DNA from: Frankia alni ACN14a
GTDB lineage: Bacteria > Actinomycetota > Actinomycetes > Frankiales > Frankiaceae
Direction: 5' to 3'
Assembly (NCBI RefSeq): GCF_000058485.1
Contig: NC_008278.1
Coordinates: 2,722,962-2,786,961 of the forward strand
Length of the DNA: 64,000 nucleotides
Both the position numbers and the translations under genes were made by a program. Of this stretch, positions 21,860 to 34,270 are shown piece after piece. Each line of letters starts with the position of its first letter. Position 1 is the first letter of the stretch. Below the pieces are notes generated by a model. The model did not search any database. It was given only the letters and a program-made list of their open reading frames with translations, and was not told where the DNA came from.

Positions 21860-23041
21860 TCAGGGTCCGGCCCGGTTCGCGCCCGCGTCCTGCGTCACGT
21901 TCGTGGGACGGCGGTCCGACCCGTCGGTGTCGTCGGCTCCGTCGAGGACGGGTGGTGCGTCGAGGACGGGTGGTGCGTCGAGGACGGGTGGTGCGTCGAG
22001 GACGGGTGGTGCGTCATGGGGCGCCGTCGTGGCCGCGGCTGCCATCTCGTCCGGCGACGCCGTCCCCCTGCGGCCGGGCCTCCTGCGCCGAAGGGCTCCG
22101 GCGTAGACACCGAGCCCGACGCCCACGATCAACGCCGCACCGTCGAAGAGCTCGCTGACCCACGGGGCGGCCCCCCACAGGGTCAGCCCGTTGACGCTGA
22201 TGGCGAGAAAGAACACCGCGGTGATCGTGCCCCACACGTTGTACCGACCGGGCTGGATCGACGTCGCGCCGAGAAACGCCGCAGCGATGGCCGGCAGCGT
22301 GTAGTTCGAGCCGAGCTGTGGGCTGCCGGCGCCAACGGCCGCGACGAGCAGAACGCCGGCGCCGCCCGCGATGCCGCCGGCGAGCACGAGAGAGCCGAAC
22401 GTCTGCCGGGAGACGCCGATGCCCACCAACAACGCCGCCCGGGGGTTCGATCCGATCGCGTAGAGGTTCTTACCCGTCGGCGTCTTCTCCAGCAGATACC
22501 ACGCGACGAGGGCGATGCCGAGGAGGAAGTAGAAGAGTGTGGGGACGCTGAGCCATTTCCCCGGGCCGAGCCTGAGGAGCCCGGGGCTCACGCCCGTGGT
22601 GATCGAGACTCCGCCGGAGTACGCGAGGACGGCCGCCCCGATCACGCTGGACATCCCCAGCGTGGCGATGATCGAGTTGATGCCCACCGAGGCGACGAGG
22701 ATCGCGTTGATCGTGCCGATGACGAGGCCGACGACGATGGCGGCGAGGATCGCGGGGAACAGCGGCCAGCCGGACTTCGACATCAGGCCCGCGCACAGAA
22801 CGGAGGTCAGGCCGGCATTCGGCCCGACCGAGAGATCGATCTGACCGGCGACCAGCGGAATCACGGTCGCGATGGCCAGGATCCCGAGGATTGACTGGTC
22901 GGTGAGGATGTTCCTGAGGTTGGCGACGGTGTCGAACTGGGGGGTCGCGGAGTTCACGCTGAAGAAGACGATGACCGCGACGAGCAGGGCCACGAGGCCG
23001 TACCGCTCGAAGAACTCGGTAATCCGTAACTGCGCCTTCAT
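21860..23041 (-). CDS. ABC importer permease (RbsC/BPD-transp-2 family)
   Basis: 393 residues. Residues 1-325 are a multi-span membrane protein with the family block SILGILAIATVIPLVAGQID, then LSVGPNAGLTSVLCAGLM. Later come INAILVASVGINSIIATLGM and GKNLYAIGSNPRAALLVGIG. The last 65 residues are a soluble tail containing four perfect copies of DAPPVL, encoded by an 18-bp tandem repeat; the tail has no counterpart in ordinary RbsC proteins. The ATG overlaps the ATPase stop (ATGA). With the ATPase and the binding protein it forms a complete importer, probably for the compound that the regulon degrades. Confidence 0.9.
   Translation of the reverse strand: MKAQLRITEFFERYGLVALLVAVIVFFSVNSATPQFDTVANLRNILTDQSILGILAIATVIPLVAGQIDLSVGPNAGLTSVLCAGLMSKSGWPLFPAILAAIVVGLVIGTINAILVASVGINSIIATLGMSSVIGAAVLAYSGGVSITTGVSPGLLRLGPGKWLSVPTLFYFLLGIALVAWYLLEKTPTGKNLYAIGSNPRAALLVGIGVSRQTFGSLVLAGGIAGGAGVLLVAAVGAGSPQLGSNYTLPAIAAAFLGATSIQPGRYNVWGTITAVFFLAISVNGLTLWGAAPWVSELFDGAALIVGVGLGVYAGALRRRRPGRRGTASPDEMAAAATTAPHDAPPVLDAPPVLDAPPVLDAPPVLDGADDTDGSDRRPTNVTQDAGANRAGP
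21941..22012. repeat. Four perfect 18-bp tandem repeats in the permease tail
   Basis: The unit GTCGAGGACGGGTGGTGC (plus strand) is repeated four times without change. Because 18 is a multiple of three the coding frame is kept and each copy adds Asp-Ala-Pro-Pro-Val-Leu to the permease tail. Copy number is likely to vary between strains. Confidence 0.95.
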
Positions 23042-28417: not shown

Positions 28418-29298
28418 GGCCGAGAGCACCATCGACTTGTCCTGGGGCGGGATCCCCGTCCCGGCGATGTCACGATCCTTGATTGAGAGGGCTGGGCGCC
28501 CTGCAGGCGGGAGCCGCCGGGCGGTGCCCCCTGCCCTGCCGGCGGAGTGGGCAGGGTGACGCCGTTGCTAGCCAGGCACTCCTGGTAGGCGGATCGGGCC
28601 GTATGCGGCAAGGACCAGCGCCAGGGCTGGCAGCGCCATCACCCGGTGCGCCACGTCCCGCGCCAGAAGTCGCGCCCTCGGCGCGGTTCTCCGCAGCATG
28701 ATCATGCTTGCCGCAGCATGATCATGCTTGCCCGGCACCTGCTCCACGACCAGACCGCCCACCGCGACCCCGCTCCGACCACCACCAGCGCCGGCACGAA
28801 TGAGGACATCGCACCCGCCAGCTCGGCCGCTGGCTCCCTCAGGTCGACCACCAGATCATGGTGAGAGTTTTACCCTGAGTCATGTTCGACCCCACATGAG
28901 TCCGCCGGTCCCCGCGTCCGGTGCCCGGCGGGGTGGTCCGGGAGCGCGTTCCCCGGCCACCCCCGGGGGGGCGGCCGCCGCCCCGCGCGACGCTGGCAAA
29001 TCTCCGTGCTTGGCTGGTCATGGTGGCGTTGACCACATGAGGCAAGGCATCGCGCGGTGTTGAGTGGGGCCGGTCGCGCCAACATAAACGGTGCCCGCGA
29101 GTTCCTGAAGCCAAGGCTGGCGGCGCGTCAACCGTGCGTAGCTGCTCGACAATCTTCTGCCCTGCGGTTCAAGGTCATGTAACGCTTCTCGTTGCCAACG
29201 TGTTAGATTCTGTGTCGACAGTGTGGCTCTGCGGCGCGCATGGCGCCGCCCCGGGATACGACGCCGGATCTCCGGCTGGAGCGCTCCTGTGGGGTGAA
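28418..29298. other. Gene-poor region between insertion-sequence relics and the NRPS cluster
   Basis: About 880 bases with no reading frame I can defend on either strand. The frames present are Arg/Pro/Ala-rich and lack sensible ribosome binding sites. It contains the paired palindromes at 28691-28730 and leads up to the regulator start at 29299. An AT-richer stretch around 29185-29215 (GTTAGATT) could hold the promoter of that regulator, but no confident -35 box is seen. Confidence 0.5.
28691..28730. repeat. Two tandem 20-bp units, each with the perfect palindrome AGCATGATCATGCT
   Basis: CCGCAGCATGATCATGCTTG occurs twice head to tail (28691-28710, 28711-28730). Each copy contains a perfect 14-base palindrome, at 28695-28708 and 28715-28728. 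The centres are exactly 20 bases apart, about two helical turns, which places both on the same face of the DNA, as expected for cooperative binding of a dimeric regulator. No gene starts within 500 bases, so the partner is unknown. Confidence 0.85.
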
Positions 29299-32200
29299 AT
29301 GGAGTTCAGGTTTCTAGGTCCTCTGGAGCTGCTTCACAACGGTCAGCAGCTGACTGTGGGCGGTCCCCGGCTACGGATCGTGCTGGCGATGCTGGGCCTG
29401 GAAGCCAACCGGGTGACGCCGTTGGAGAGGCTCATCGAGGCGGTGTGGGGTACGGAGCCGCCGGCAACGGCGCGCTCCCAGATTCAGATTTGCATTTCGG
29501 GACTGCGTCGCACCTTTGCTGACGCCGGCCGCTCCAATGCCATCGCCACCCGCGCGTCGGGCTATTTGCTTTCGATCGACGCGGAAGAATTGGATGTCAC
29601 CCGCTTTGGTCGGATGGTCGCCTCGGCACGCGACCTCGCCGGTAAGGGCCAGGTCGCCGAGGCGGTCGAGGAGCTGCACGGCGCTCTCGGCCTCTGGCGG
29701 GGCCCGGCGCTGCAGGGCGTGGAGAGCGACTTCGTGCAGCGGGCCGCCACCCAGCTTGACGAGATGCGGCTGACCGCGATCGAGGAGCGGGTGCGGCTGG
29801 AGCTCGCGCTCAACCGGCACGACAAGGTCATCAGGGAGCTCTTCGAGCTGGTGGAGCGTGAGCCGCTGCGGGAGCGGCTGTACGGCTCGCTGATGCTCGC
29901 GCTCTACCGCGCGGGCCGGCAGGCCGAGGCGCTGAAGTGCTATCGCCGGATGCGTGCCATCTTCGTCAACGAGCTCGGCATCGAGCCAGGCAAGGAGCTG
30001 CAGCAACTCGAGACGGCGATCCTGAACCACGATCCGGTCCTCGACCTGCGGGTGCCGGACCGGGAGGCCGACGTGCCTGCGGCGGCGACCGGTACTGGTA
30101 CGGGTGCCGGCTCGGGTCCGGTGTCCGGTGCGCCCGGGGAGGACACGGCCGCGGACTCCGGCGTCGTACCGCCGCGGCAGCTGCCCAGCGACATCGCCGA
30201 CTTCACCGGCCGATCCGAGCAGCTGGCCGAGATCGTCCAGTCGCTCGGCGCCGATCAGGACCAGATGGCGGCACGCTACTCGGTGCGCGTGCTGGCCATC
30301 ACCGGCAAGGGCGGTGTGGGCAAGTCCGCGCTCGCGGTGCGCGCCGCGCACGAGCTCAAGGCGCATTACCCGGACGGGCAGCTCTACGCCAACCTGCGCG
30401 GCATGACCGGTGCGGCGGGCTCCGCCGAGGTGCTTTCGCGGTTCCTGCGCGCCCTGGGCGTTCCCGGACCGGCGGTCCCCGAGGATCCGGCCGAGGGCGG
30501 CTCGATGTACCGCAGCAGGCTCGCGGCGAAACGGATCCTCGTGGTGCTCGACGACGTGGTCGACGAGCCGCTCGTCCAGGCGCTGCTGCCCGGCAGCCCC
30601 AGCTGCGCGTTGATCGTGACGAGCCGCTCTCGGATGACCGGTCTGGCCGGTGCCGTCTGCATCAACCTCGAGGTGTTCGACAACGATCTGTCGATCGACC
30701 TCCTCGCGGACATCGCGGGGCAGCAGCGGGTCCGCGCCGAGCTGCCGGCAGCAACGCAGCTTGCCGAGTTCTGCGCCGGCCTGCCCCTGGCGCTGCGGAT
30801 CGGCGGGGCCCGCCTCGCGCACCGCCCACACTGGCCCATCGCCAAGCTCGTCCGTCGGCTGCAGGACGAGGCCGGACGCCTCGACGAGTTCGAACACGGC
30901 GGCCTGGAGCTGCGCTCGACCATCAGCGTCGCCTACCGGGGCGTCGACGTGTCCGCCCAGCGGCTCTTCCGCCTGTTCGCCCTACTGAACGGGGAGGACT
31001 TCGCGGCCTGGACGGCCGCCGCGCTGCTCGACATCGACGTCACGGAGTCCGAGGACACCCTGGAGCGGCTGGTCGACGCGCAGCTGCTCGACGTGGTGGT
31101 CATGCTTGGCGAGGAGCCACGTTACCGCTACCACGACCTCATCCGGATCTACGCGAAGGAACGGCTGCGCGAGGCCGGTCGGGAGGACGAGTCGCGGGCC
31201 GCCCAGGAGAGGGTGCTGGGATGCTGGCTCTCGCTCGTGCGGCGGGCGCACCGCCGTGAGTACGGTGGCGACTTCACCGTCCTGCACGGCGACGCCGCCC
31301 TGTGGGAGCTTCCGGATGACGTGATCGACGACCTGGTCGAGGACCCCATCACCTGGTGGGAAAGCGAGCGCCGCCCGCTGGTGGGCGCCGTGCGCCAGGC
31401 CGCCGAGCTGGGCATGGACGAGCTGTGCTGGGACCTGGCCCTGACCTCGGTGACGCTTTTCGAGGCGAAGGGCTACTTCGACGACTGGCGGGAGACCGCC
31501 GAGCTGGCTCTTGCCGTCTGCGAGGGCGCGGGCAACGTCCGTGGCGCCGCGGCGATGCGCTACTCGCTGGGGAGCCTGGCCGTGTACCAGCAGGATCTGC
31601 AGGAGGCCGAGCGTCTGCTGCCCGCGGCCTTCGCGGCGTTCGAGGAGATCGGCGATCTGCATGGCCAGTCGCTGGTGCTTCGCAACATGGCGCAGATCGA
31701 CTGGTTGCGCGGCGATCACTCCGCCATGTTGGACAAGTACGACACCGCCCTGACCGGTCTGCGCGCCGTGGGTGACCGCGCGGGCGAGGCGCACGTGCTG
31801 GTCAACATCGCGAAGGCCCGCACGGAGGAGGACACGGAGCACGAGTCCGCGCGGGACATGCTCACCGCGGCGCTGGCCATCTGCCGGGATATTCACTGCG
31901 AGCGCGTGGAAGCGCAGGTGATTTTTCGGCTCGGCGAGCTGTATCTACGCGATCATGAGGCGGGATCGGCGGCGCAGGCATTCGAATGGGCGCTGCGTCT
32001 GGTCCGCCGGAACCGTGATCAGTTCGGTGAGTGCCATGCTCTCAACGGACTCGGCCGGGCCCAGTGGAGGCAGGGCAATCTCAGCGCCGCGGAGGCGAGC
32101 CTGATCCAGGCGTTGCGTCTCGCGAAACAGGTGGGCGACCGCATGATCGAGGGCCGCAGCCTGCTGGCCCTGGGTGAGATCGCGATGGTGGGAAGCGGCT

Positions 32201-32451
32201 ATGAGGTCGCTCGTATCCACCTCGCCGCGGCGCGGGAGCTTTTCGACCGGCTTGGAGTGGGTCTGCTTCAGGCGAGCGTTCGGATGATCTTCTCCGAACT
32301 TCTCGCCGCCGAGGCGGACTATGTGGCGGCCGGTGCCGAGCTGGCGGGGGCCAGGCTGATTCTGCTCAAGCTCGGTTCTCCGGAGGCTGCTCGGATGCTG
32401 GCTGAGCTGACCGTGAAGTGGCACCTTATTCCGGGCGCCGCGACCTCCTGA
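29299..32451 (+). CDS. SARP-family activator with NB-ARC ATPase and TPR domains (AfsR-like)
   Basis: 1,050 residues from the ATG at 29299 (MEFRFLGPLELLHNGQQLTV). Residues 1-95 are an OmpR-type winged helix, and about 96-245 are the bacterial transcriptional activation domain (AVEELHGALGLWRGPALQGV; QAEALKCYRRMRAIFVNELG, then IEPGKEL). About 290-530 form an NB-ARC ATPase with Walker A ITGKGGVGKSALAVRAA and ILVVLDDVVDE. From about 700 to the end are tetratricopeptide repeats (LAVYQQDLQEAERLLPAAF). The frame opens earlier at 29134, but the wHTH begins at 29299. It stands first in the peptide cluster and is the probable pathway-specific activator. A perfect 11-bp inverted repeat overlaps its end. 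Confidence 0.93.
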   Translation: MEFRFLGPLELLHNGQQLTVGGPRLRIVLAMLGLEANRVTPLERLIEAVWGTEPPATARSQIQICISGLRRTFADAGRSNAIATRASGYLLSIDAEELDVTRFGRMVASARDLAGKGQVAEAVEELHGALGLWRGPALQGVESDFVQRAATQLDEMRLTAIEERVRLELALNRHDKVIRELFELVEREPLRERLYGSLMLALYRAGRQAEALKCYRRMRAIFVNELGIEPGKELQQLETAILNHDPVLDLRVPDREADVPAAATGTGTGAGSGPVSGAPGEDTAADSGVVPPRQLPSDIADFTGRSEQLAEIVQSLGADQDQMAARYSVRVLAITGKGGVGKSALAVRAAHELKAHYPDGQLYANLRGMTGAAGSAEVLSRFLRALGVPGPAVPEDPAEGGSMYRSRLAAKRILVVLDDVVDEPLVQALLPGSPSCALIVTSRSRMTGLAGAVCINLEVFDNDLSIDLLADIAGQQRVRAELPAATQLAEFCAGLPLALRIGGARLAHRPHWPIAKLVRRLQDEAGRLDEFEHGGLELRSTISVAYRGVDVSAQRLFRLFALLNGEDFAAWTAAALLDIDVTESEDTLERLVDAQLLDVVVMLGEEPRYRYHDLIRIYAKERLREAGREDESRAAQERVLGCWLSLVRRAHRREYGGDFTVLHGDAALWELPDDVIDDLVEDPITWWESERRPLVGAVRQAAELGMDELCWDLALTSVTLFEAKGYFDDWRETAELALAVCEGAGNVRGAAAMRYSLGSLAVYQQDLQEAERLLPAAFAAFEEIGDLHGQSLVLRNMAQIDWLRGDHSAMLDKYDTALTGLRAVGDRAGEAHVLVNIAKARTEEDTEHESARDMLTAALAICRDIHCERVEAQVIFRLGELYLRDHEAGSAAQAFEWALRLVRRNRDQFGECHALNGLGRAQWRQGNLSAAEASLIQALRLAKQVGDRMIEGRSLLALGEIAMVGSGYEVARIHLAAARELFDRLGVGLLQASVRMIFSELLAAEADYVAAGAELAGARLILLKLGSPEAARMLAELTVKWHLIPGAATS

Positions 32452-32475
32452 TTCAGGCTGCTGTGGTCGCGGCGC
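32435..32475. terminator. Bidirectional terminator-like hairpin after the SARP gene and the peptide gene
   Basis: A perfect 11-bp inverted repeat, GCGCCGCGACC (32435-32445) and GGTCGCGGCGC (32465-32475), has a 19-base loop holding the SARP stop codon. It lies between the ends of two convergent genes, so it could stop transcription from both sides. No T-run follows, which is common in GC-rich hosts. Confidence 0.55.
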
Positions 32476-32487
32476 GGGGCGCGATCA

Positions 32488-32640
32488 CTACCAGTGCGTG
32501 TCGTCGCTCGCCACCGTCGGGTTCGACGAGAAGTCCGGCGCGCTGATTCCGCAGGTGCCCCAGTGCGTGTCGTCGCTTCCCGCGGGAATGCTGGAGTGTG
32601 CCTTCAGGGCGAAGGTGGAGGAAATCGCGCTGGTTGTCAT
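32488..32640 (-). CDS. 50-residue peptide with duplicated SDDTHW motif, candidate RiPP precursor
   Basis: ATG at 32640, preceded by GGGAG at seven bases, opens a 50-codon frame ending TAG at 32488. The N-terminal part (MTTSAISSTFALKAHSSIP) looks like a leader. The C-terminal 31 residues hold two copies of SDDTHW, one at residues 22-27 and one as the last six residues, separated by GTCGISAPDFSSNPTVA with a single Cys. The copies are encoded by the same 18 bases (AGCGACGACACGCACTGG). Ser, Thr, Asp, His, Trp and Cys dominate the core, residues that RiPP enzymes modify. It is divergent from an ATP-grasp gene 262 bases away. A competing frame (32453-32827) covers the same bases but is Arg-rich and lacks a ribosome site. 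The function is a hypothesis. Confidence 0.6.
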   Translation of the reverse strand: MTTSAISSTFALKAHSSIPAGSDDTHWGTCGISAPDFSSNPTVASDDTHW

Positions 32641-32902
32641 CCTGGGTCTCCCGTTCAGGTTTTCCGCCGTACCCCGGCGGTCTGTTGCGGCCCGTGGCGG
32701 CCGCTTCGGGAGAAATCACACAGCGCGGCGGTTTCAACGCGCCCTCGTTCGGCTTTCGGTCCCATTCGATAGCTGGCATGATCGACAGATGGCGGCCTGA
32801 TAGCCGGTCAATACCCCCGCCGAGCATGGTGTGTTCCAGTCATCCGGATTTCGCGGGATGGCCGGCTGCGCAAGCGGTACGAGCTGAAAGGGGAGTAACC
32901 GG

Positions 32903-34270
32903 ATGCCCGAACGATTCGTCGGTCCGACGGCGGCCAGGCGGTTGTCCATCCGGGCGGGGGCGAACGGGGGAATCGTGCCCGCCGACGATCGGCCGGCGGC
33001 GCTGCTCCTCGGCGCCGACTGGCCCGCGCCACTCGGCGAGGACATCGCGGGACGAGCGCTGCTGGAAGGCCGGGCCCGCGGGGTGTGGACGCACGTCACC
33101 GACCGGACGCGGTCGCTCGCCGCGGCGGCCACGCTGCGCGAGCTGGCGGACGTCTGCTCCGCCGTCGACTTCGCCCGCACCGATGAGTGGGTAGCGTGGG
33201 CGCGGTCGATGGTGGCCGGCGGCGCCCGCTTCGACATGGTGTTCGACGTCGGTTCGCGCAGCCAGCAGATGGTGGCCGAGGTGGCCGCCGAGATCGGCGC
33301 CCCCGGCAACGCGCCGAAGGCCGTGGAGCTGATCGCCGACAAGGACCGCTGCCGGGCCGCGCTGTCCGCCGCGGGCTTCGTCCAGCCGCGCTTTCGGCTC
33401 TGCGCCGACCGCGCCGAGGCCGCCGAGTTTCTGCGGGACACCCGCAGCCCCTGTATCGTCAAGCCCCGCCGGTCGGCGGGAGGGAACACGGTATCCCTGG
33501 TGCGAAGGCCCGCGGATCTGACCGCCGCGCTGGCCCGACTGCCATCGGACGAGGAGCTCCTGGTCGAGCAGTTCGTGGGAGGGCGCGAGTTCAGCGCCGA
33601 GGGCGTCTTCCTCGACGGGGAGCCACGCACGCTGGCCATCGCGGAGAAGGAGCTCGGCCCCGGGCCGCGGATGCGGACTCGGGCCCGTGTCCTGCCGGCG
33701 GACCTGCCCGCGGACGACCTCGCCCTGGTCGAGAGCACGGTGGTCGCCGCGCTGCGCAGCCTGTCGCTGTCCTTCGGCGCGTTCCATGTCGACCTGACGC
33801 TCACGGACGCCGGTGTCGTGCTCGGCACGGTGAAGGCCCGCCTGGGCGGCGGCTGGACCCACGTCCTGCTCGCCCATGCGATCCCCGACCTGGAGCTGTT
33901 CGGGCTGATCTACGGAGACGCGCTGGGCCAATCCCGCGACGCCCAGCCGCTGGTGCCGCAGCGTGCCGCGGCCGTGCGGTTCCTCACCGGTCCGCTCGGA
34001 CGGTTCGTTCTCGTCGAGGAATGGCGCAGGGTGCTCGACCATCCGGCCGTCCTGCGCGCCGAGCTCTTCGTCGAGCCCGGTGCGCTGGTCGACCCGGAGG
34101 ACGGAGGGTACGTGGGAATGATCCTCGTCGCCGCCCCCACCCCGGGGGAGGCGGCCGCCCTGGCCGCCGACCTCGCCCGCTCCACGCGGGTCGTCGTCGA
34201 ACCTATTCAGACAGCCGCTGATGACTCGGTGTACTCCGAGGTTCGCAGAATTGTTGACACGGAGGCGTGA
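32903..34270 (+). CDS. ATP-grasp ligase with altered metal-site residues
   Basis: 455 residues, ATG start with AAGGGGAG seven bases before. The biotin-carboxylase/carnosine-synthase-like ATP-grasp layout is clear: NAPKAVELIADKDRCRAALS, then AAGFVQPRFRL (lid entry), SPCIVKPRRSAGGNTVSLVR (glycine-rich ATP loop), ELLVEQFVGGREFSAEGVFL, and LSFGAFHVDLTLTDAGVVLG, then TVKARLGGGWTH. In active relatives the last segment reads E-[IV]-N-x-R, with Glu and Asn binding magnesium; here it is T-V-K-A-R, and the earlier Glu is Asp. It may join a carboxylate to an amine (dipeptide or peptide tailoring) or may have lost catalysis. A two-base gap-free overlap with the LmbU gene (34267) shows co-transcription. 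Confidence 0.82.
   Translation: MPERFVGPTAARRLSIRAGANGGIVPADDRPAALLLGADWPAPLGEDIAGRALLEGRARGVWTHVTDRTRSLAAAATLRELADVCSAVDFARTDEWVAWARSMVAGGARFDMVFDVGSRSQQMVAEVAAEIGAPGNAPKAVELIADKDRCRAALSAAGFVQPRFRLCADRAEAAEFLRDTRSPCIVKPRRSAGGNTVSLVRRPADLTAALARLPSDEELLVEQFVGGREFSAEGVFLDGEPRTLAIAEKELGPGPRMRTRARVLPADLPADDLALVESTVVAALRSLSLSFGAFHVDLTLTDAGVVLGTVKARLGGGWTHVLLAHAIPDLELFGLIYGDALGQSRDAQPLVPQRAAAVRFLTGPLGRFVLVEEWRRVLDHPAVLRAELFVEPGALVDPEDGGYVGMILVAAPTPGEAAALAADLARSTRVVVEPIQTAADDSVYSEVRRIVDTEA

Follow-up and report, generated by a model that had tools for sequence, protein, structure and literature searches.

We found that a 50-codon ORF on the minus strand of the Frankia alni ACN14a genome belongs to a conserved family of peptide genes, which occupy two fixed placements relative to genes of SARP-NOD-TPR activators, are co-inherited with these activators and carry a motif conserved at the protein level. 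The product of this ORF is probably the cognate peptide signal of the adjoining activator, and would switch on the cluster by way of proposed export, uptake and binding. On balance we also lean towards a wider reading, in which the family represents an undescribed and widespread actinobacterial system, with secreted [DN]x[HP]W peptides acting as ligands of the orphan TPR sensors of AfsR-like activators and each motif class serving as a private code in step with the activator clades. Among the titles and abstract openings listed in searches of open-access literature, none described such a peptide-activator pair.

The window (the whole stretch of DNA that was analysed, 64 kb long) contains the following features at this locus.

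29299..32451, plus strand: SARP-NOD-TPR activator (AfsR-like, STAND type) and putative receptor; start of the listed ORF at 29134
31336..32448, plus strand: C-terminal helical TPR region of the activator according to the structure model, the proposed peptide-binding sensor
32435..32475, no strand: 11-bp perfect inverted repeat (arms 32435-32445 and 32465-32475) that reaches from the 3' end of the SARP gene into the space before the peptide-ORF stop
32488..32640, minus strand: gene of the 50-aa peptide, DTHW type, with family relatives; stop codon at 32488-32490
32491..32508, minus strand: second SDDTHW copy, at the very C-terminus (18-bp repeat)
32560..32577, minus strand: first SDDTHW copy (18-bp repeat)
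32648..32652, minus strand: Shine-Dalgarno-like GGGAG, 7 nt ahead of the ATG of the peptide ORF
32641..32902, no strand: intergenic region from which the peptide and ATP-grasp genes diverge, with promoters presumed
32903..34270, plus strand: ATP-grasp ligase (ATP-grasp_4 and LAL_C2), a neighbour judged to be outside the system

The ATG-started peptide ORF encodes MTTSAISSTFALKAHSSIPAGSDDTHWGTCGISAPDFSSNPTVASDDTHW. An earlier note on this DNA had described a 50-codon gene with its own ribosome site, located between the SARP activator and the ATP-grasp gene and carrying two identical SDDTHW hexapeptides, one of them terminal, that an 18-base duplication encodes; all of this agrees with the coordinates listed above. 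The exact repeat CCAGTGCGTGTCGTCGCT encodes both hexapeptides, and its copies, being 69 bp apart, are in frame. Exact direct repeats of at least 15 nt at distances of 15-200 bp are present at four places in the window, this one among them, while the DDTHW pattern GAYGAYACNCAYTGG has its sole occurrences in the 7,497,934-bp genome in the two copies within the ORF. The GC content per codon position (0.44/0.64/0.88) is coding-like, which by itself is not decisive: a similar profile was seen in 969 of 18244 windows of 150 nt in any frame.

By plain homology search the ORF looks like an orphan, since no full-length match was detected in 12 other genomes of the genus (E 0.01) or elsewhere in a class sample of 296 genomes, its own included (E 0.001), and the comparison with plasmid records gave nothing meaningful (best E 10). 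The earlier note had also spoken of a leader-like N-terminus. This proved to be a mere description, as the hydropathy threshold revealed no signal-like hydrophobic segment in the ORF and no RiPP precursor family was found, NCBIfam giving no match at E<=1. Inspection by eye of the three frames upstream of the first motif showed no signal segment either, and the one Pfam match, Nup_retrotrp_bd, scored 12.9 bits, far under the 25-bit cut-off.

The adjoining activator combines a SARP domain, a NOD (NB-ARC) and a TPR region in one chain (Pfam domains Trans_reg_C, BTAD, NB-ARC and TPR), which is the architecture of AfsR-like large SARPs. Its reading frame is open throughout. Homology to other proteins mostly begins near residue 55, and therefore M56 at 29299 is a likelier start than 29134; the longest ORF probably includes some 55 extra codons at its 5' end (29134-29298). 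The protein matched solved AfsR over residues 45-1018, with PDB 8k60 and 8jke as the top structure hits, and shares no more than 52% identity with relatives from elsewhere. Its score against NF053617 was 518.6 bits, compared to an equivalog cut-off of 1430 bits, and so it is not AfsR itself.

The TPR region was modelled from the single sequence, and the best of five models had a pLDDT of 85 (57-76 for the others). The top structural matches of this model were TPRs of LGN/Pins bound to partner proteins or peptides (Z 27.8), followed by Rap (Z 24.6) and NprR (Z 23.5), the pheromone receptors of Bacillota and their phages; many other TPRs matched as well. Given how common TPR folds are, the predicted similarity to Rap, NprR and LGN is compatible with peptide binding and is no proof of it; it is a generic similarity of fold that indicates no function. 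The sensor role of the AfsR TPR has been called tentative, and inactivity in the absence of a stimulus is presumed for STAND proteins (PMC10936776). The same source reports that AfsR forms with the C-terminal domains gave weaker activation in vitro than the SARP domain alone (PMC10936776).

Relatives of the Frankia peptide with the same DTHW motif were found beside near relatives of its activator. In four of them, 48-50% identical and from another family (L057, L058, L060, L061), a convergent DTHW ORF is located at the same spot, where it ends with a stop codon 9-72 bp beyond that of the activator. In the window, where the two genes are also convergent, the stop codon of the peptide ORF begins 37 bp beyond the end of the SARP gene. 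All four ORFs have a hydrophobic signal-like start, two to five DTHW copies and a terminal DTHW. For example, the peptide of L058 is MTIHRTAAIFVTALFCAAIATLVPAQAASADTHWGGTSGDTTTVPADTHW, that of L060 is near-identical to it, and that of L061 has five copies; AxA immediately precedes the first DTHW in these three. Within single genes as well as between genes, the DTHW copies use differing synonymous codons, a sign of selection at the peptide level. The activator closest in sequence (L056, 52%) had no DTHW ORF in the surrounding 18 kb.

Other activators are accompanied by other motif classes, including NTPWG, NMHWGN, NPWD and DDPWT. On annotated plasmids, the convergent short ORF that follows the activator ends in DNTPWT in L028 and L029 and has four copies of DDPW in L027. 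These three ORFs, along with those of L091 and, from the looser set described below, L089, are annotated as hypothetical proteins on named Streptomyces plasmids. In L059, an activator with two in-frame stops adjoins a shortened ADTHW ORF, and activator and peptide seem to decay together in L059 / L177.

Several loci showed variations of the arrangement. L042, L153, L155, L158 and L160 each have two or three tandem signal-like ORFs with NMHWGN-type tails and a single activator, several of the ORFs having Cys on either side of the motif; these are possibly several signals for one receptor. A plasmid of Streptomyces sp. ITFR-16 (L094:5113-5343) encodes, convergently after the activator, a signal-like small protein that has no Trp but two DDQGPTVIGK repeats and may represent a further code of this system.

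For a systematic survey, 153 activator loci were oriented by tblastn, after three of 156 (L051, L124, L172) had been dropped where the match stopped short. The strict scan selected frames ending in [DN].?[HP]W plus at most eight further residues, and frames were called signal-like by a hydropathy threshold. The motif was present in 34 of 574 frames located convergently downstream of the activator (27 signal-like) and in 29 of 695 located co-directionally upstream (18 signal-like). The control positions together gave 10 of 4064 frames: one of 617 downstream on the same strand and one of 833 inside the activator on the plus strand, neither signal-like; three of 1917 inside on the minus strand, two of them signal-like extra copies at the activator end in L153 and L160; and five of 697 upstream on the minus strand, with L052 as the one that was signal-like. 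The ORFs of L153, L160 and L052 look like genuine family members. As a background, the window and ten loci with ATP-grasp relatives gave 2 of 1868 frames, one of which is the window ORF.

Four matches (L023 and L068 upstream, L076 and L175 downstream), with neither a signal-like segment nor coding-like composition, were removed by eye before the tree and the final count were made, while L028, L034 and L075, which also lack both, were retained for their place, tail or annotation. We thus counted 59 motif ORFs in 55 of the 153 loci (the window and 54 others), though the survey counts are neither independent nor blind, given the close relatives among the loci and a pattern refined on part of them, and are inflated by near-copies. 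A signal-like segment was present in 45 of the 59, and 12 had the motif more than once in the last 75 residues. W is preceded by P in 40 ORFs and by H in 19, a choice set by the search pattern; three positions before W, N was found in 29 and D in 13. The chain ends at W or one residue later in 39 of the 59.

After the removal by eye, the strict motif was absent from 98 of the 153 loci. The 95 loci that had no strict match in either of the favoured places were scanned again with a looser pattern, which detected 23 convergent and 10 upstream signal-like ORFs with a W-terminal tail (e.g. CDSHWMD, CDSTWMDPG, GGDMWG), compared to none downstream on the same strand and five upstream on the minus strand; some of these candidates arise by chance. 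Five peptides of the family had no match at cut-off level in Pfam or NCBIfam. The pattern DNTPWT* had no match in 393 genomes of the class, which indicates that one exact code is too narrow a query.

Phylogenetic analysis showed that the peptides follow the activators. The motif class changed 9 times on a 55-activator tree, compared to 26.5 times when shuffled (none of 200 shuffles was as low). The DTHW group arose by one change and had SH-aLRT support of 100, with the window at its base, and a long-branch warning applies around the window. Gene placement also changed once on this tree; L052, L053, L054 and L139 were left out of it for misplaced activator ends, and of the four, L052 is the one with a peptide, encoded upstream on the minus strand. 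When nine near-copies were omitted, a mixture-model tree of the remaining 46 rows gave no long-branch warning for the window; the DTHW group had a support of 99, the motif class changed 8 times compared to 21.3, and placement changed once.

The identity of the peptide core was correlated with the identity of every activator domain (r 0.52-0.55), and in a Mantel test of the TPR against the peptide core none of 300 permutations reached as high a value. The partial correlation was 0.22 for the TPR given the SARP domain and 0.11 for the SARP domain given the TPR, values for which no significance was computed; by this measure the peptide core tracks the TPR slightly more than the DNA-binding part.

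The other neighbour of the peptide ORF is the ATP-grasp gene, which is divergent from it, starts 451 bp beyond the SARP stop and is followed by a gene of an LmbU-family regulator. The earlier note had proposed a RiPP precursor for the ATP-grasp enzyme, with a signalling peptide as a fallback. The adjacency of the two genes and the ATP-grasp_4 and LAL_C2 domains of the enzyme agree with modification or ligation of the peptide; in graspetides and pheganomycin-type RiPPs, too, a peptide gene adjoins an ATP-grasp gene. Relatives of the enzyme were found in ten loci (35-49% identity), while 34 other genomes of the family that were searched had no match at E 1e-30. None of the ten loci contained a short ORF with the strict motif, and the looser pattern produced one chance match there (DLPWKDLPR in L014); such absence of the frame from relatives with the same ATP-grasp gene is what the earlier note had itself named as counting against its proposal. 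Conversely, motif ORFs recur beside activators whose fetched stretches showed no ATP-grasp homologue: none was detected by tblastn (E 1e-8) in the other activator stretches, which mostly extend 1.2-2 kb to each side, a reach that the 451-bp distance of the window is well inside. Unlike in the graspetide and pheganomycin-type systems, the peptide is not conserved with the enzyme family and has no precursor-family match. We therefore rejected the pairing of the peptide with the ATP-grasp enzyme, and consider a precursor processed by this enzyme highly improbable. The fallback fared better, and signalling is the reading favoured by the recurrence of similar ORFs beside SARP-NOD-TPR activators.

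A short peptide that is encoded next door, mostly bears a signal and tracks the activator tree is a natural candidate for the stimulus of an AfsR-like activator. We infer export, processing, uptake, TPR binding and activation as follows. The family product, which usually resembles a propeptide for Sec export, its short C-terminal motif [DN]x[HP]W (DTHW in the window) present once or several times, would be exported and processed, and the freed peptide would re-enter the cell. There the STAND-type activator encoded next door would bind it through the TPR sensor, and binding would lift the autoinhibition of the activator and turn on the biosynthetic cluster. The outcome would be peptide quorum sensing or self-signalling of an RRNPP-like kind. 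Since the window ORF has no signal segment, its product may use another export route or act inside the cell, or the ORF may be a fading copy.

Three other explanations bear on these observations. The small protein might never be exported and might instead be a direct co-activator or inhibitor of the activator, i.e. a diverged AfsS-like regulator. AfsS, a protein of 63 aa with three 12-aa repeats, is encoded by a target gene of AfsR (PMC2267785, PMC10936776), and besides the window ORF, 13 others of the 59 are without a signal-like segment by the threshold (among them L028, L034, L070, L075, L076, L101 and L134), though two, L064 and L111, appear by eye to bear a signal. Against such an intracellular partner are the segments in the other 45 and the result of a motif search, in which the searched loci contained no AfsS-like DNHM motif apart from one unrelated DNHA match; we regard it as unlikely. 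Loss of the export signal might alternatively mean that the window pair has decayed and that its ORF no longer works, which would be compatible with signalling at the level of the family. The interrupted activator and shortened ORF of L059 illustrate that pairs may decay. However, the activator frame in the window is open, both motifs, the start codon, the ribosome site and the coding-like composition are kept, and members without a signal also occur in the NTPWG group, so that a decayed remnant appears improbable as well.

A secreted peptide might, on the other hand, have an extracellular role of its own, as an effector, an antimicrobial or a RiPP such as a halogenated Trp peptide, and be merely co-regulated with the activator or adjacent to it. 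Most members do combine a signal-like segment with a short fixed Trp-bearing tail. Tryptophan halogenase genes (L027:14016-15572, L089:5538-6682) or a homologue (L117:16-1191) are located near a Trp-tailed peptide gene and an activator, and a lantibiotic dehydratase gene is near the peptide in L029; these genes may belong to the clusters controlled by the activator, or they may modify the peptide, and part of the family may accordingly consist of RiPPs. Yet a halogenase homologue was present in just 3 of the 165 fetched stretches, whose flanks are mostly short, and the window had none; the six annotated neighbourhoods that contain a peptide are all different; and it is with the activator that the peptides are associated, and the activator tree that they follow. 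We consider an independent extracellular role rather unlikely, a little more so than either of the two preceding explanations, and retain the peptide as the probable signal of its activator.

The proposed signalling system resembles the RRNPP systems (Rap-Phr, NprR-NprX, PlcR-PapR, Rgg-SHP) in that a small propeptide gene adjoins the gene of a cytoplasmic TPR protein and the TPR model aligns with Rap and NprR. RRNPP signals are mostly secreted; here, by the hydropathy threshold, 45 of the 59 family members have a signal-like segment and the window ORF has none. Tandem copies are described among RRNPP signals (PMC11343458), as are leaderless forms (PMC10518010). Unlike the RRNPP receptors, which are described for Bacillota (PMC10075063), the receptor here would be an actinobacterial SARP-NB-ARC-TPR STAND protein with no XRE-type HTH; by Pfam, the activator has neither an XRE-type HTH with TPR nor a Rap-type TPR, and the peptide motif is [DN]x[HP]W. 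Given an RRNPP logic but a different receptor architecture, we regard the system as RRNPP-like in its working but outside the RRNPP group.

The AfsR-AfsS pair of Streptomyces shares the architecture of the activator. The repeats of AfsS are DNHMP-like. AfsR switches on afsS, which encodes this small repeat-bearing protein (PMC2267785, PMC10936776), described as a 'sigma-like' regulator (PMC2267785). Unlike the proposed peptide, AfsS is not described in these sources as a ligand, and a search of the activator loci for DNHM-type motifs gave no related match. For uptake, a precedent is BldK of Streptomyces coelicolor, which imports an oligopeptide signal that sets off development and antibiotic production (PMC11303876). 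By analogy, oligopeptide uptake of the BldK type is a possible import route for the proposed peptide. To our knowledge, the gene for the extracellular signal imported by BldK has not been reported.

If the neighbouring gene does encode the ligand, a silent antibiotic cluster could be awakened with a synthetic tetra- to hexapeptide read directly from the genome, and one could check the code peptide after peptide. Ribosomal peptide quorum sensing with intracellular TPR receptors would then extend to actinobacteria, for which the signals described are typically small molecules made by enzymes (PMC10075063).

With respect to the DNA around the peptide ORF, the 11-bp inverted repeat at the convergent gene ends is a candidate bidirectional terminator; a terminator scan, by its own consensus, found none. 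No promoters were recognised in the divergent intergenic region, and SARP-type heptamers at 11- or 22-bp spacing, sought upstream of the peptide ORF, were no better than those in shuffled sequences, with no operator recognised. The 18-bp repeat was also considered as a DNA operator, a reading that is disfavoured because the motif recurs elsewhere as protein with synonymous codon changes. Two small SARPs and a partial paralogue of the same genome (L018-L020) had no motif ORF.

Two further repeats were observed in the window. Two copies of CCGCAGCATGATCATGCTTGCC, 20 bp apart and overlapping by two bases, are located at 28691-28732, some 570 bp ahead of the probable activator start; each contains the palindrome AGCATGATCATGCT, and they are a candidate operator. 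An 18-bp tandem repeat of about four copies at 21940-22015 lies within a minus-strand frame of 393 aa (21860-23041) and encodes four DAPPVL units near the C-terminus of the frame.
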